From positions 2,448-29,409 of the forward strand of contig NHDS01000017.1 of assembly GCA_002167215.1 (NCBI GenBank): a DNA stretch of 26,962 bases. Reading direction: 5' to 3'. The notes beneath the pieces were generated by a model, which saw nothing but the letters and a program-made list of their open reading frames with translations, made no database searches and was not told the origin of the DNA. The position numbers and the translations under genes were made by a program. Source of the DNA: Pelagibacteraceae bacterium TMED65. Lineage in GTDB: Bacteria > Pseudomonadota > Alphaproteobacteria > TMED127. Position 1 is the stretch's first letter; the number at the start of each line of letters is the position of its first letter. Positions 6,481-12,887 of this stretch are shown piece by piece.

Positions 6481-7194
6481 ATGGATGAAACTATCGAAAA
6501 AAAGATCATTGAGGAATCTTCTGACTTCTCAATTTTTTCATTATTTTTACAAGCAGATGTTGTCGTAAAAATTGTTATATTATTATTGTTGTTCTCGTCG
6601 GTTTGGTCATGGACTATTATATTTTCGAAATATACAAGGTTAAAAGGAATAATTATGGAAACCGAAGATTTTGAGGAAAAATTTTATTCAAGTGAAACCC
6701 TAAGTAAGCTATCTAAAAGGATAGGAGGGCAACCAACACATCCAATGGAGTCAGTATTTTTTTCGGCAATGGTATACTTCGATAGAATAAAAACAGGATT
6801 TTCAAATAAGAACTTTGAGTTTAAAAAAAGTTTCTGTGAAAACGTAAAAAAGGAAATGGAAATTGTCATAAATAAAGAATTATCAAGTTTAGAAAAGGGA
6901 CTTAACTTTCTTGCATCGGTTGGTTCAACTGCACCATTTATTGGACTGTTTGGAACAGTATGGGGTATTATGAACAGCTTCACAGCTATCGGCATTTCAC
7001 AAAATACAAGCCTCGCCGTTGTCGCTCCCGGTATTGCTGAGGCTTTGTTTGCAACTGCACTTGGACTTGTGGCTGCTATACCTGCGGTACTTTTTTTCAA
7101 TAAATTCAATGATATGTTAGATAATCTTAATAACAAGTTAGATGTATTCTCAGATGAAATATTAGTGATAATTTCTAAAGAAATTTTTAGGTAG
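6481..7194 (+). CDS. tolQ: Tol-Pal inner-membrane proton channel subunit TolQ
   Basis: TolQ forms the pentameric MotA/ExbB-type stator in the inner membrane that, with TolR, uses proton-motive force to energise TolA. The 237 residues show one N-terminal membrane helix (about 28-49), a long cytoplasmic segment, and two C-terminal membrane helices (about 138-165 and 172-200). The conserved GSTAPFIGLFGTVWGIMNSF stretch contains the channel-lining threonine and glycines. It begins 7 bases after ybgC and leads tolR by 4 bases. Confidence 0.96.
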   Translation: MDETIEKKIIEESSDFSIFSLFLQADVVVKIVILLLLFSSVWSWTIIFSKYTRLKGIIMETEDFEEKFYSSETLSKLSKRIGGQPTHPMESVFFSAMVYFDRIKTGFSNKNFEFKKSFCENVKKEMEIVINKELSSLEKGLNFLASVGSTAPFIGLFGTVWGIMNSFTAIGISQNTSLAVVAPGIAEALFATALGLVAAIPAVLFFNKFNDMLDNLNNKLDVFSDEILVIISKEIFR

Positions 7195-7198
7195 ATTT

Positions 7199-7597
7199 AT
7201 GAGAAAAAAATTCAGGAAAAAACCAATGTCAGATATTAACGTAACTCCATTTGTAGATGTGATGCTAGTTTTGTTAATAATTTTCATGGTAACAGCCCCA
7301 CTTCTTTCTTCAGGAATTAAAATAAATTTGCCAGAAAGTTCATCTGTATTGAAAAACGAGAAAAAAGATCCAGTAACCGTTTCACTAAACTCTAAAGGAG
7401 AAATTTTTATCCAAAAAAAACGATTTACGAGGCAGCAATTAATACAAAAACTCAAACTTTTAAAGAAAAATAATAAAAATTTAAAAATTTACATTAAAGG
7501 GGATAAAAAATTAGATTATGGAAAAGTTATGGATTTAATGAGTTTAATCAATAGTTCTGGTTTTACCAAAGTAGCATTAGTCACTAAATTAAAATGA
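7199..7597 (+). CDS. tolR: Tol-Pal system protein TolR
   Basis: TolR is the single-span ExbD/MotB-type partner of TolQ. The 132-residue product has a basic cytoplasmic N-terminus and the conserved SDINVTPFVDVMLVLLIIFM segment. Asp20 in FVDVML is the proton-carrying residue (equivalent to E. coli Asp23). A periplasmic domain follows, with the IYIKGDKKLDYGKVMDLM region typical of the dimeric peptidoglycan-binding fold. Length is near the usual 140. Seven bases separate it from tolA. Confidence 0.95.
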   Translation: MRKKFRKKPMSDINVTPFVDVMLVLLIIFMVTAPLLSSGIKINLPESSSVLKNEKKDPVTVSLNSKGEIFIQKKRFTRQQLIQKLKLLKKNNKNLKIYIKGDKKLDYGKVMDLMSLINSSGFTKVALVTKLK

Positions 7598-8441: not shown

Positions 8442-9743
8442 ATGAAATTCTTTTTTGCCTTTTTAATATTTATTTCCTTTTCTGCTAGATCAGAATTGAG
8501 AATAGATATAACTCAGGGAAATTTAAACCCCATACCTGTGGCAATTTTAGAATTTAATTCTTCCAACTCAGAATCTAGAGAGATTTCATCAAATATAAAT
8601 ATTGTAATTTCAAATAATTTAGAGAGATCAGGTCTTTTTTCGATTTTACCCAAAAAGCTTTTTTTCAATACATCTTTACCATTTGAAAAAAAACCAATCT
8701 TTGAGGATTGGAAAATAACAACAGCACAAGGTCTTGTTCATGGAAAATTAAATTTAAGAAATGAAAAAATTGATATTGAATTTCGATTATGGGATGTTCT
8801 TTCCCAAAAACAAATGGTTGCTCAAAAACTTTCAACTGAAAAAAGTAATTGGAGAAGAATTGCACATGTAATATCAGATATTATTTATCAAAGAATAACG
8901 GGCGAATCTGGTTATTTTGATAGCAGGATAGTATACATATCAGAATCCGGTCCTAAAAGTAATAGAAAGAAAAGATTGGCTATTATCGATCAGGATGGTG
9001 CGAATCATAAATTTTTGACTGATGGTTCCTACCTCGCTTTGACACCAAGGTTTTCTCCAGCAGCACAAGAAGTGGCTTATTTGTCCTACAATAATACTGT
9101 TCCAAGAATTTTTCTTTTAGATCTGAATACAGGAAAACAAAAAATATTAGGAGATTTTCCAGGAATGACCTTTAGTCCAAGATACTCTCCTGATGGAAAA
9201 AAATTAGTAATGAGTTTAGCAAAAAACGGCAATACTGACATTTACGAAATGAATTTAGAAACATTAAAGATGAAAAGGCTTACATTTTACGACGGTATTG
9301 ACACTGCTCCTTCCTATTCACCTGATGGCGATTTTATTACATTTGAATCTGACAGAAGTGGTAGCCAAAAAATATACATAATGAATTTAAAAACAAAAAA
9401 AGTAAAAAGAATTAGTTTTGGAAAAGGAAAATATGCAACACCAGTTTGGTCTCCAAGAGGTGATTTAATTGCATTTACAAAGCTTTTAGGTGGTGAGTTT
9501 TACATTGGCGTTATGTATGCTGATGGAAAGGGTGAAAGAGTTGTTTACAAATCATACCTGGTTGAAGGACCATCTTGGTCGCCTAACGGAAGAGTGATAG
9601 CATTTTATAACCAAAGTAAGTTTTCAGGTGGAAAGATTTCTAATCCTAAAGTTAAAATGATTGATTTAACTGGTATTAATTTAAGAGAGCTTGTTACACC
9701 CTCTGATGCTTCAGACCCCGCCTGGTCAGGATTACTACCTTAG
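8442..9743 (+). CDS. tolB: Tol-Pal system periplasmic protein TolB
   Basis: TolB is the periplasmic partner that binds Pal and is displaced by TolA. A Sec signal peptide is visible (MKFFFAFLIFISFSARS), with the mature end near ELRIDITQG, the TolA-box region. An N-terminal alpha/beta domain (to about 160) is followed by a six-bladed beta-propeller made of WD40-like PD40 repeats. The repeats are marked by TPRFSPAAQEVAYLS, SPRYSPDGKKLVMS, APSYSPDGDFITFES, TPVWSPRGDLIAFTK and GPSWSPNGRVIAFYN. The 433 residues are normal length. The 54-base gap after tolA is the first sizeable spacer in the cluster and may hold a weak internal promoter. Confidence 0.97.
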   Translation: MKFFFAFLIFISFSARSELRIDITQGNLNPIPVAILEFNSSNSESREISSNINIVISNNLERSGLFSILPKKLFFNTSLPFEKKPIFEDWKITTAQGLVHGKLNLRNEKIDIEFRLWDVLSQKQMVAQKLSTEKSNWRRIAHVISDIIYQRITGESGYFDSRIVYISESGPKSNRKKRLAIIDQDGANHKFLTDGSYLALTPRFSPAAQEVAYLSYNNTVPRIFLLDLNTGKQKILGDFPGMTFSPRYSPDGKKLVMSLAKNGNTDIYEMNLETLKMKRLTFYDGIDTAPSYSPDGDFITFESDRSGSQKIYIMNLKTKKVKRISFGKGKYATPVWSPRGDLIAFTKLLGGEFYIGVMYADGKGERVVYKSYLVEGPSWSPNGRVIAFYNQSKFSGGKISNPKVKMIDLTGINLRELVTPSDASDPAWSGLLP

Positions 9744-9767: not shown

Positions 9768-9796
9768 TTGACTTATTAGTATTCAAAATGTAAAAC
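9768..9796 (+). promoter_or_regulatory. Candidate promoter of the small lipoprotein gene (pal-like)
   Basis: TTGACT (9768-9773) is separated by exactly 17 bases from TAAAAC (9791-9796), which is preceded by TG. The element is nearly the same as the one before pal: TTGACTTATT and TGTAAAAC are identical, at identical spacing, with 23 of 29 positions matching. Two copies in the same arrangement upstream of two lipoprotein genes support function more than either hexamer alone. Confidence 0.55.
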
Positions 9797-9815: not shown

Positions 9816-9820
9816 AAAGG
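9816..9820 (+). promoter_or_regulatory. Ribosome binding site of the small lipoprotein gene
   Basis: AAAGG lies 10 bases before the ATG at 9831, within TTAAAGGTATCTA. This resembles the pal leader TTAAGGATCTA. Clear Shine-Dalgarno sequences are rare in this window, so the site helps argue that the short gene is translated. Confidence 0.55.
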
Positions 9821-9830
9821 TATCTATTTT

Positions 9831-10004
9831 ATGAAAATCAAATATTTCGTTCTTTTAATCGCGATTTCCTTCATTAGTAGTTGTGCAAATGAACAATATG
9901 TTGGTAGCGATAACCTGCTCCAAGACAACACGTTCAGAGACATTCCAACGCACGATTCAGTCGACTGCTTTGGATCTTGTACTGTAAAGATTTATAACAG
10001 ATAA
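9831..10004 (+). CDS. Small putative outer-membrane lipoprotein between tolB and pal
   Basis: A 57-residue protein with a lipoprotein signal peptide: basic start MKIKY, hydrophobic core FVLLIAISF, and lipobox ISSC with the acyl-accepting Cys18. The residue after Cys is Ala rather than Asp, which favours sorting to the outer membrane by E. coli rules. The mature part is only about 40 residues, polar, and ends with a Cys pair in VDCFGSCTV (residues 46 and 50), which could form a disulfide. It has its own promoter-like element and ribosome site, both similar to those of pal. Its placement inside the Tol-Pal cluster suggests an envelope role, perhaps with Pal or TolB. No known family is recognised; function is unknown. 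Confidence 0.75.
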   Translation: MKIKYFVLLIAISFISSCANEQYVGSDNLLQDNTFRDIPTHDSVDCFGSCTVKIYNR

Positions 10005-10067
10005 AAAAATTAGTTTGTTACCTAATTCTTTATTTGATTGTTAATATCTTTTAATAAACCTTAACCG

Positions 10068-10096
10068 TTGACTTATTTCTGTACAGATTGTAAAAC
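10068..10096 (+). promoter_or_regulatory. Candidate promoter of pal
   Basis: TTGACT (10068-10073), 17 bases, then TAAAAC (10091-10096), matching the element upstream of the small lipoprotein gene. A perfect TATAAT occurs slightly further on (10104-10109) but has no good -35 at 16-18 bases, so it may be a second weak start. Position and spacing support a pal-specific promoter inside the tol cluster, as known for E. coli pal. Confidence 0.55.
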
Positions 10097-10140: not shown

Positions 10141-10626
10141 ATGAAAAACAAATACATATCATTATTATTCGCTGGTATACTCATGATCACGGGTTGTGAA
10201 ACAACTGGTGGTTCGTCATCATCGGGTAGTACTCCAGGATACGAATACGGAGACTCTAGACAAGCAAACCTTCAAGCCTACCTTCAAAACGAAATTGGGG
10301 ATAGAGTTTATTTTGAAACAGATAAACATAATATTTCATCTGCATCAGCATTTGTGCTTGAATCTCAAGCAAATTGGCTTAAATCGACTCCTGGCTTTCA
10401 GTTGTTGATTGAGGGTCATTGCGATGAGAGGGGCACTCGAGAGTACAACTTAGCTTTAGGAGAGAGAAGAGGTAATTCAGTTAAAGAATTTCTTGCCTCA
10501 CTTGGTGTTGATCCCGGCAGATTGACAGTAATAAGCTACGGCAAAGAACGTCCAGCTGCCGACGGAAGCACTTCTGAAGCTTTCGCAGAGAATAGAAGAG
10601 CAGTGTTAGTTGTAAGTGGTAACTAA
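10141..10626 (+). CDS. pal: Peptidoglycan-associated lipoprotein Pal
   Basis: Pal anchors the outer membrane to peptidoglycan and is the endpoint of the Tol energy relay. The signal peptide ends in lipobox MITGC with Cys19. A short Gly/Ser linker follows, then an OmpA-type domain (about 50-158) with VYFETDKHNIS and the diaminopimelate-binding signature EGHCDERGTREYNLALGERR (residues 91-110), including Asp95 and Arg110. The SYGKERPA and FAENRRAVLV ends are typical. The 161 residues are normal. It has its own promoter-like element upstream and a strong terminator downstream, so it may also be made as a monocistronic transcript. Confidence 0.97.
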   Translation: MKNKYISLLFAGILMITGCETTGGSSSSGSTPGYEYGDSRQANLQAYLQNEIGDRVYFETDKHNISSASAFVLESQANWLKSTPGFQLLIEGHCDERGTREYNLALGERRGNSVKEFLASLGVDPGRLTVISYGKERPAADGSTSEAFAENRRAVLVVSGN

Positions 10627-10655: not shown

Positions 10656-10684
10656 AGGGCTAATGATATTAGCCCTTTTTTTTT
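10656..10684 (+). terminator. Rho-independent terminator after pal
   Basis: A perfect 9-bp stem (AGGGCTAAT, 10656-10664, pairing with ATTAGCCCT, 10668-10676) closes a 3-base loop (GAT). It runs into nine consecutive T residues (10676-10684). It is the clearest terminator in the window and lies just 6 bases before the cpoB ATG. Confidence 0.88.
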
Positions 10685-11566: not shown

Positions 11567-12887
11567 ATGATAAATACAAAGCCTGTAGATCATAACGAAT
11601 TCAACATAATTTTAAAAAAAAAAAACTTTCTCTTTGAAAAAAAACCTCATATTGCAATTTGTGTTTCTGGTGGGGTAGATAGCCTTGCTCTTTTAATTTT
11701 AATGAATAAATGGATAAAAAAGAAAAAAGGTTTGTTAACGGTTCTTCATTTTAATCACAAATTGAGAGATAATTCAAAAAAAGAGGAGTTTTTTGTGAAA
11801 AACATTTGCAGTCAACTTAAAGTTGTCTTCAAGGCTTTTAGTTGGAATTTACCTAGACAGAAATCATCAATAATGAAAAATGCACGAGATGCAAGATATA
11901 AAAATTTTATTGAATATTGTTCAAAAGAAGGAATTATATCTCTTATGACAGCACATCATAGAGATGATTGTCTAGAAACTTACTTAATGAGAAAAAAAAG
12001 AAGGTACGCGACTCTTGGTTTAAATGCAATCCCTACACAGAATATTCAAAAAAATTTACAAATTTTGAGACCTTTAATCGATATTTGTAAAAAAAGATTA
12101 ATTAATACATGTAAAAAAAACAATTTTAATTGGATTAGTGATCCTAGCAACGAAAATAATAAATACGAAAGAGCAAAAGTAAGAAAATATATAAGTAGCT
12201 TAAATCAAAATTGTTTCAAAAACATCAATGTGGATTTTAGAAACTCTCAAATCGAAAATACAAAAATCGAAAAAAAACTTAATAACTTTTTAATCAATAA
12301 TTTAAGTTTTTTTGATTATGGTAAATTTATATTAAAAAAAGATAAGCTTTTAGCAAATTGTCAAAGTTTACAGATAGAAGTGATAAAAAGAATTCTAGTA
12401 ACTTGTTCTGGAACAATATATCCCCCAAAAACTCTTTCTGTAAAAAGTTTAGTGAGAAAAATCAAAATCAAAGACAAATTTATATTTTCTCTTAATTGGT
12501 GCATCATTAATGTCAAACCAGATCTCATAGAATTTTATAGAGAATATCAAAAAATTAAAAGATATTGTTCAACAAAAACTATTTTAAAAAAAAAACAAAT
12601 CTTTCTTATGGGATAACAGGTTCGTTATTGAAACCTTTAAAAATGATCTTACTTGCGAAGCAATGAACGAAAAAAAGTGGCTTTTTATTAAAAAAAAATA
12701 TAAGTCAGTGAGTTACAACAGACAAATTCACTTTGATGTAATTAAAACATTACCAATCATTAAAGTTAAAAATAAATTAATAATCCCTTACTTTTTGAAT
12801 CAAAGTGAACTAGAAAGAAATTCTGTAAGAGTTCTTTTCAATCCAATTATACCTCTCACAAAAAAAAATTTTTTAAATATTAATTGA
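11567..12887 (+). CDS. tilS: tRNA(Ile)-lysidine synthase TilS, interrupted by a frameshift in an A10 tract
   Basis: TilS ligates lysine to C34 of tRNA-Ile(CAU) so that it reads AUA; it is normally essential. The first frame (11567-12616, 349 residues) has the PP-loop SGGVDS (34-39) and the HHRDDCLET motif. It stops shortly after an A10 tract at 12586-12595. Removing one A joins it to a second open frame ending at 12887. The junction then reads KKNKSFLWDNRFVIETF, the WDGRF-like start of the TilS C-terminal domain, followed by IKTLPIIKVKNKLIIPYF. The repaired protein has 439 residues, close to E. coli TilS (432). The break is therefore an assembly or sequencing error, transcriptional slippage, or a very recent mutation. 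The gene begins 1 base after cpoB and precedes ftsH. Confidence 0.9.
11614..11625 (+). repeat. A12 homopolymer inside tilS
   Basis: Twelve consecutive A residues near the tilS start are read in frame as ILKKKNF. With the A10 tract downstream, the gene holds two sites prone to polymerase slippage or base-calling error. Confidence 0.85.
12586..12595 (+). repeat. A10 homopolymer at the tilS frameshift
   Basis: Ten consecutive A residues follow ATTTT. As written, the upstream frame continues to a TAA at 12614-12616. With nine A residues the frame continues to 12887 through recognisable TilS C-terminal sequence. The shift must lie after the in-frame TAA at 12585-12587 of the second frame, which places it within this tract or in the few codons after it. 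Confidence 0.85.

Follow-up and report, generated by a model that had tools for sequence, protein, structure and literature searches.

Few envelope machines of Gram-negative bacteria are as widespread as the Tol-Pal system, whose list of components is generally regarded as settled. In the DNA analysed here (the whole stretch of 26,962 nucleotides, hereafter the window), a short reading frame lies between tolB and pal, which raises the question of whether it is a real gene and, if so, what its product does beside this machine. The initial annotation had read it as an undescribed small lipoprotein gene with its own ribosome site and promoter-like element. The results bore this out: the gene is real, with 59 relatives and 18 related loci; an AAAGG-like stretch and an element copy lie ahead of it (Table 1); and the window protein matched no Pfam family at E up to 1 and no NCBIfam family at E up to 0.1. 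The flanking genes were recognised as tolB and pal by their Pfam matches (TolB_N and PD40 for the one, OmpA for the other).

The 57-residue translation of 9831-10004 on the forward strand is MKIKYFVLLIAISFISSCANEQYVGSDNLLQDNTFRDIPTHDSVDCFGSCTVKIYNR*. It has a basic start, a hydrophobic stretch and a Cys-ended lipobox (MKIK...ISSC), as expected of a lipoprotein signal, and a mature part of 40 residues that carries a CX3C pair at Cys46/Cys50 and ends in ...IYNR; one of its tryptic pieces is DIPTHDSVDCFGSCTVK. The protein is thus laid out as a signal peptide, a lipobox, a variable linker and a core of the form DxxFxxIPTHDxxDCxGSCTVKxYN. Among the window's other genes, eight proteins were scanned against Pfam and the others were named from their translations. 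In the same window, tilS is cut to 349 residues (11567-12616), compared with 423-440 in the relatives listed, except for the contig-end piece L006. What is left of tilS may lie in two short frames at 12565-12666 and 12663-12887 (window 11567-12887), which would point to a frameshift or an assembly error.

Table 1. Features of the tolB-pal region, in positions of the window
Feature	Position	Strand	Evidence
tolB	8442..9743	+	TolB_N E 3.7e-25, PD40 E 3.7e-21
Element copy 1 (TTGACTT-N14-TGTAAAA), promoter-like, upstream of the small gene	9768..9795	+	exact match
AAAGG, ribosome-site-like	9816..9820	+	sequence; AAGG/AAGGG counterparts in relatives
57-residue lipoprotein gene, stop codon included	9831..10004	+	sequence, relatives, conservation
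Signal peptide and lipobox; Cys18 codon at 9882-9884	9831..9884	+	Cys18 invariant, 19/19 genes
Conserved core, residues 32-57	9924..10001	+	core dN/dS 0-0.02 in 9/15 computed pairs
CX3C codons, Cys46-Cys50 (CFGSC)	9966..9980	+	both Cys invariant, 19/19 genes
Element copy 2 (TTGACTT-N14-TGTAAAA), upstream of pal	10068..10095	+	exact match
pal	10141..10626	+	OmpA family E 5.1e-20; lipobox Cys is residue 19
Terminator-like hairpin 3' of pal, then T run	10656..10676	+	sequence

A search of about 5.8 billion sequences with the single protein returned 59 candidates, and all 59 were related (E 6.7e-27 to 6.1e-16, 66-86% identity); 58 of them were 56-79 residues long and one was 46. Of 922 candidates from the profile search, 131 matched at E up to 10, and several of the weakest among those listed were truncated or frame-broken members of this family. 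A source name was attached to only 7 of the 120 relatives among the matches listed, in each case hypothetical protein, so the small gene is nearly invisible to annotation.

We compared the window gene with those of 18 related loci (L001-L017 and L023). The frame, lipobox and cysteine pair, on whose conservation the initial annotation had staked its proposal, were kept in 19/19 genes. The results showed 18 invariant residues, namely C18, G25, D27, D32, F35, I38, P39, T40, H41, D42, D45, C46, G48, S49, C50, V52, K53 and N56, and those from I38 onward were each written with 2-4 different codons. Thirteen of the 18 were still invariant in a wider alignment of 28 rows. When 77 rows were aligned, H41, D42, D45, C50 and K53 were kept in 77/77, C46 in 76/77 (Ser in P0079) and C18 in 76/77, the exception being a protein without a signal part. 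The linker varied from 13 to 25 residues across the 19 genes, always by whole codons, with the frame kept in every one. Compared with the window gene, the linker between lipobox and core was 10-12 residues longer, in frame, in L011 (7378-7578), L015 (1690-1896), L016 (7379-7585) and L017 (7377-7583).

The substitution rates, a check that had been suggested along with the original proposal, were computed by the Nei-Gojobori method over residues 32-57 for 15 pairs. Core dN/dS was 0 in 6/15 pairs, some of which rest on few changes (L012/L014 on one), and 0.02 or less in three more with measurable dS; the highest measured value was 0.099, and dS was saturated in four pairs. Over the whole gene, dN/dS in four pairs was 0.091, 0.047, 0.020 and 0.040, compared with 0.039, 0.044, 0.036 and 0.026 for TolB and 0.022, 0.007, 0.044 and 0.028 for Pal in the same pairs, and the first 31 residues were looser than the core in most pairs. 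Judged by this pattern, the small gene is under strong purifying selection.

A tblastn search of tolB-pal gaps in relatives, another check proposed with the original reading, covered 80 loci kept by TolB similarity, with 148 relatives found. The gene lay between tolB and pal in 18 of the 80, which were the 18/18 related carrier loci already named. One further locus, L018 (genome G010), held a decayed copy with one in-frame TAG, the lone broken frame among the related loci; this copy lies at about 7370-7570 and has both elements on its flanks. The gene was absent from L019-L022, four sister genomes with TolB, both by tblastn at the locus and by genome search, and the tolB-pal spacing was 88-96 bases there compared with 389-417 in loci with the gene. 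No relative was found by tblastn in the 57 outside loci; pal was found after tolB in 36 of these, one of which (L025) had an unrelated lipobox-like ORF in the gap, and no pal was found in the other 21.

Among the 32 genomes of the family to which G001 (the genome of L001) belongs, 18 had an intact copy and one, G010, the decayed copy, with one full-length match per carrier genome. TolB was found in 23/32, of which 4 were without the gene; absence was judged only where TolB was found, and the 9/32 genomes without a TolB match were left out. In a class sample of 385 genomes, 10 matches were obtained at E up to 0.01, of which four were full-length (G001, G025, G027 and G032, all of the family); the other six were partial and ran no further than residue 32 (five) or residue 37 (one). 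Among 398 genomes sampled across the phylum, G001 was the sole match at 1e-4, and neither sample gave a full-length match outside the family. A tree of TolB, Pal, TolQ and TolR set the carriers and L018 apart from the four non-carriers and the outgroups with support of 1.000, with some inner nodes weak. One gain and one decay is the simplest reading of this history. Its restriction to one lineage means that the gene is not a general part of Tol-Pal; a core component would be present wherever Tol-Pal is, and L019-L022 have none. Nor is it essential to Tol-Pal, given that four sister genomes lack it and another has only a decayed copy.

The carriers probably belong to the marine AEGEAN-169/HIMB59 order, with low G+C, small genomes and records of single-cell ocean type; excerpts of PMC10308909 and PMC10734472 treat this order. 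In the literature on HIMB59, AEGEAN-169 and Tol-Pal small lipoproteins, taken as titles and abstract openings with subscription journals mostly outside its scope, no description of the small gene was found.

The same upstream element precedes the small gene and pal, and copy 1 reads TTGACTTAT...TGTAAAA from 9768. We searched 17 whole genomes for the exact pattern and obtained 23 matches in 14 genomes, 23/23 of them in the tolB-pal region by position; the three genomes without it (G012-G014) are non-carriers, and the reversed pattern gave 2 matches in all in the same 17 genomes, both in G013. As these sites supplied the pattern itself, the only independent observation is that it is absent elsewhere. 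Of the 12 carriers searched in this way, 9 had two exact copies and 3 had one. With the looser pattern TTGACTT-N14-[TG]GTA, two copies were found in each of the 20 loci where the gene is intact or decayed, and a single copy in each of the 4 that lack it, and the copy upstream of the small gene was present in all 18 related gene loci and in the decayed L018. The consensus over 44 copies was TTGACTTAT-N7-cA-N-a-N-TGTAAA, and the element stood 53-63 bases from the start codon of the small gene and 54-74 from that of pal. Read as a sigma-70 promoter (TTGACT, 17 bases, TAAAAC), it matches at 5/6 and 4/6 positions by hand count; a stock promoter scan did not list it. When up to 2 mismatches were allowed in 8 genomes, 52 matches were counted by hand outside the locus and the reversed control gave 49, which leaves the exact form alone informative; a match with 1 mismatch lay elsewhere in G008. 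Of the 36 outside loci in which pal was found, 30 were scanned by script, and none showed the element in its tolB-pal gap. A CCTTAACCG/CCTTAATCG stretch lies just 5' of the pal element (window 10050-10070) in many carriers, though not all, and resembles a half-site of the CtrA regulator.

The common element points to promoter duplication and co-regulation. On the simplest account of these sites, a tandem duplication gave the pal promoter a second copy, and behind one of the two the new gene either emerged or was inserted; an independent origin of the element followed by selection for co-regulation is possible as well. As a general claim, duplication of the signal peptide from pal was rejected, the mean z against shuffles being 0.54 over 19 genomes, with z of about 4 in L012 and L014, which are near-identical to each other. 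On average, the signal peptides of the small protein and Pal resemble each other no more than shuffled sequences do, so the duplication seems limited to the promoter, and a shared promoter proves co-expression at most.

Codon use was counted as NNC in NNC/NNT pairs. Among the window genes listed, the small gene (11/20) and pal (16/32) had the highest NNC use, compared with 0.13-0.37 in the 26 others. Over 19 genomes the small gene scored 156/358, compared with 0.216 over 400 sampled ORFs of G004. In G004 alone the effect was modest (7/19, z 1.6, with 15/399 sampled ORFs as high or higher), and pal ranked 19th of 400 by z. The high scorers of G004, read by eye, included CoxA, SdhB, L20, L28 and at least one probably antisense ORF. 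Such codon use hints at high expression of the small gene and pal and proves nothing.

The Tol-Pal proteins of 13/19 carriers and 4 non-carriers were scanned for fixed differences per testable column. The results gave TolQ 8/110, TolR 1/65, TolA 5/73, TolB 4/263, Pal 0/80 and CpoB 1/104, and, for other proteins, TilS 0/58, FtsH 12/479, YbgC 2/31 and RuvB 0/21, the last two from few sequences and few columns. TolQ (window 6481-7194) differed from FtsH at a nominal Fisher p of 0.020, one of six uncorrected comparisons; TolA gave 0.061 and the four others 0.23 or more. The apparent TolQ excess is a lead, not proof. Pal and TolB had no excess over FtsH. The proposed link to Pal/TolB stood in part: the upstream element shared with pal, the fixed position and the single copy speak for it, whereas the fixed differences of Pal and TolB gave no direct sign of contact.

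No extra conserved Cys was found in the Tol-Pal proteins of carriers compared with non-carriers. TolB has no conserved Cys, and those of Pal and TolA are alike in the two groups, which makes an intramolecular bond of the small protein more likely than a bridge to Tol-Pal; an inter-protein disulfide with a Tol-Pal protein is not supported, as no Cys there tells carriers from non-carriers, though one with some other partner is conceivable. DsbB of the disulfide pathway was found in 23/32 family genomes, including 13/18 carriers (not in the other 5/18, whose assemblies may be incomplete), and its presence in most of the family makes a Cys46-Cys50 disulfide plausible. AlphaFold2 with 77 sequences gave a mean pLDDT of 59.3, mostly below 50 from residue 42 on, and only the signal region had a block mean above 70. 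The core, unfolded in this model, would be expected of a short peptide folded by its partner, and also of many short peptides.

Known systems offer partial parallels. Excerpts of PMC10567701 describe LptM (formerly YifL) of Enterobacteriaceae as a lineage-restricted protein of about 6 kDa, long uncharacterised, a short peptide on a larger outer-membrane machine. As a small lineage-restricted outer-membrane lipoprotein, it is nearest to the small gene in concept. The LptM NCBIfam model gave weak matches in 4/28 members (best E 0.0023) and its Pfam region in 1/28 (E 0.078), with none for the window protein (Pfam at E up to 0.5); we think that these matches are driven by the signal peptide. The conserved part of LptM directly follows the lipobox Cys, whereas in the small protein the residues after Cys are variable and the conserved part is C-terminal, and membership was rejected on these grounds. 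VirB7 is disulfide-bonded to VirB9 in some type IV secretion systems (T4SS). Excerpts of PMC3093366 describe VirB7-type lipoproteins as small subunits of an outer-membrane complex with mature parts of 30-45 residues, a size comparable to the 40 residues here; the nearest model, LPAM_1, matched 1/28 members at E 0.15, and the reading as a T4SS lipoprotein was dropped, as no T4SS gene was read among the window ORFs, where the genes nearby include tol-pal, ruv and ftsH. Other weak NCBIfam matches, in 1-3/28 members at E 0.013-0.092, were to the SA0632 family, LolB, PRK11443 and Cor. Pal itself is a neighbouring lipoprotein gene with the common upstream element, but the small protein has no OmpA domain.

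We tentatively favour a lineage-specific outer-membrane lipoprotein that is co-expressed with Pal and whose tip docks on an envelope partner, most likely part of the Tol-Pal/peptidoglycan tether. The layout of acyl anchor, variable linker and invariant tip, together with the pal-linked element and the fixed place, makes a tethered tip working with or beside Tol-Pal the first choice. The element duplicated from that of pal would drive the small gene together with Pal, and the product, probably abundant and on a flexible tether, would be exported and then acylated on Cys18; as no Asp follows Cys18, its destination would be the outer membrane. The linker would let the core reach into the periplasm, where Cys46-Cys50 may close a small disulfide hairpin or, alternatively, help form a metal-binding tip. 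The partner on which this tip would dock, most likely one of the tether's components, would act in proportion to Pal, and the tip would tune its assembly or outer-membrane attachment. A more specific account is possible, if on the doubtful side: an orphan gene born in the family was recruited into Tol-Pal through the tandem copy of the pal promoter, its HDxxDCxGSC tip, held by a disulfide or a metal, became a lineage-specific regulator or clamp of the Tol-Pal complex, and one descendant line later lost it.

An abundant outer-membrane lipoprotein with a structural job of its own, which used the pal promoter for high amounts and had no contact with Tol-Pal, would resemble Braun's lipoprotein (Lpp), likewise small and perhaps abundant. 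We consider this doubtful. It would account for the high NNC use of the small gene and pal, a bias seen also in the CoxA, SdhB, L20 and L28 ORFs of G004, and for the lack of fixed carrier-specific changes in Pal and their small number in TolB. Against it, the core is so invariant, Cys pair included, that a specific contact is suggested, and the exact element, which in the 17 genomes stands before these two genes alone, is not a promoter for high expression in general. Membership of the Lpp family was rejected, since the small protein has a Cys pair, no Pfam match and no C-terminal Lys in its window form; a few relatives (L015-L017) do end in Lys. Binding of copper or zinc by His41, Asp42, Asp45, Cys46 and Cys50, or redox cycling of CX3C, at the outer membrane is an unlikely function, even though all five residues are invariant in the 19 genes and the 28-row alignment, four of them throughout the 77 rows, and some members have a further His at 43 (HDHIDC). 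One row has Ser for Cys46, the single solved chain reached by profile (E 1.5) matched the signal end only, no metal gene was seen among the window neighbours, and the equal conservation of Pro39, Gly48, Ser49 and Lys53 would suit a binding face just as well.

It is very improbable that the small protein derives from a phage or is an exclusion lipoprotein, akin to a spanin or Cor, retained as a defence against Tol-dependent phages or bacteriocins. The signs of such an origin are weak: at its signal end the window protein matched PHROG 11843 (function unknown; E 0.011) and an Rz-like spanin (E 0.018), and 1/28 members matched Cor (E 0.092). None of 36 pattern-matching stretches in viral contigs encodes a relative, 50,697 phage records gave no match at E up to 1, and the fixed place beside tolB-pal and the strong purifying selection already disfavoured this origin; membership among spanins or Cor was rejected. 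Scarcely credible is a leader or regulatory RNA for pal with an incidental reading frame. The stretch does lie just upstream of pal and has a single Rfam match below threshold (22.1 bits, E 0.082; gathering score 50), but no Rfam match reached the gathering score, pal has its own element downstream of the small gene, synonymous changes per site far exceed non-synonymous ones, and length differences keep the frame in 19/19 genes. The substitution pattern refutes the RNA reading, unless the pattern is an artefact.

The small gene is real, and its uncharacterised product is a neighbour or a partner of Tol-Pal; what is new here is the element TTGACTT-N14-TGTAAAA ahead of both it and pal. The clade forms a natural before-and-after series, with one element and no gene, two elements and the gene, and two elements and a decayed gene. 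If the favoured reading is true, a strongly conserved additional lipoprotein tied to pal in bacteria with small genomes would illustrate how an old machine gains a new part.
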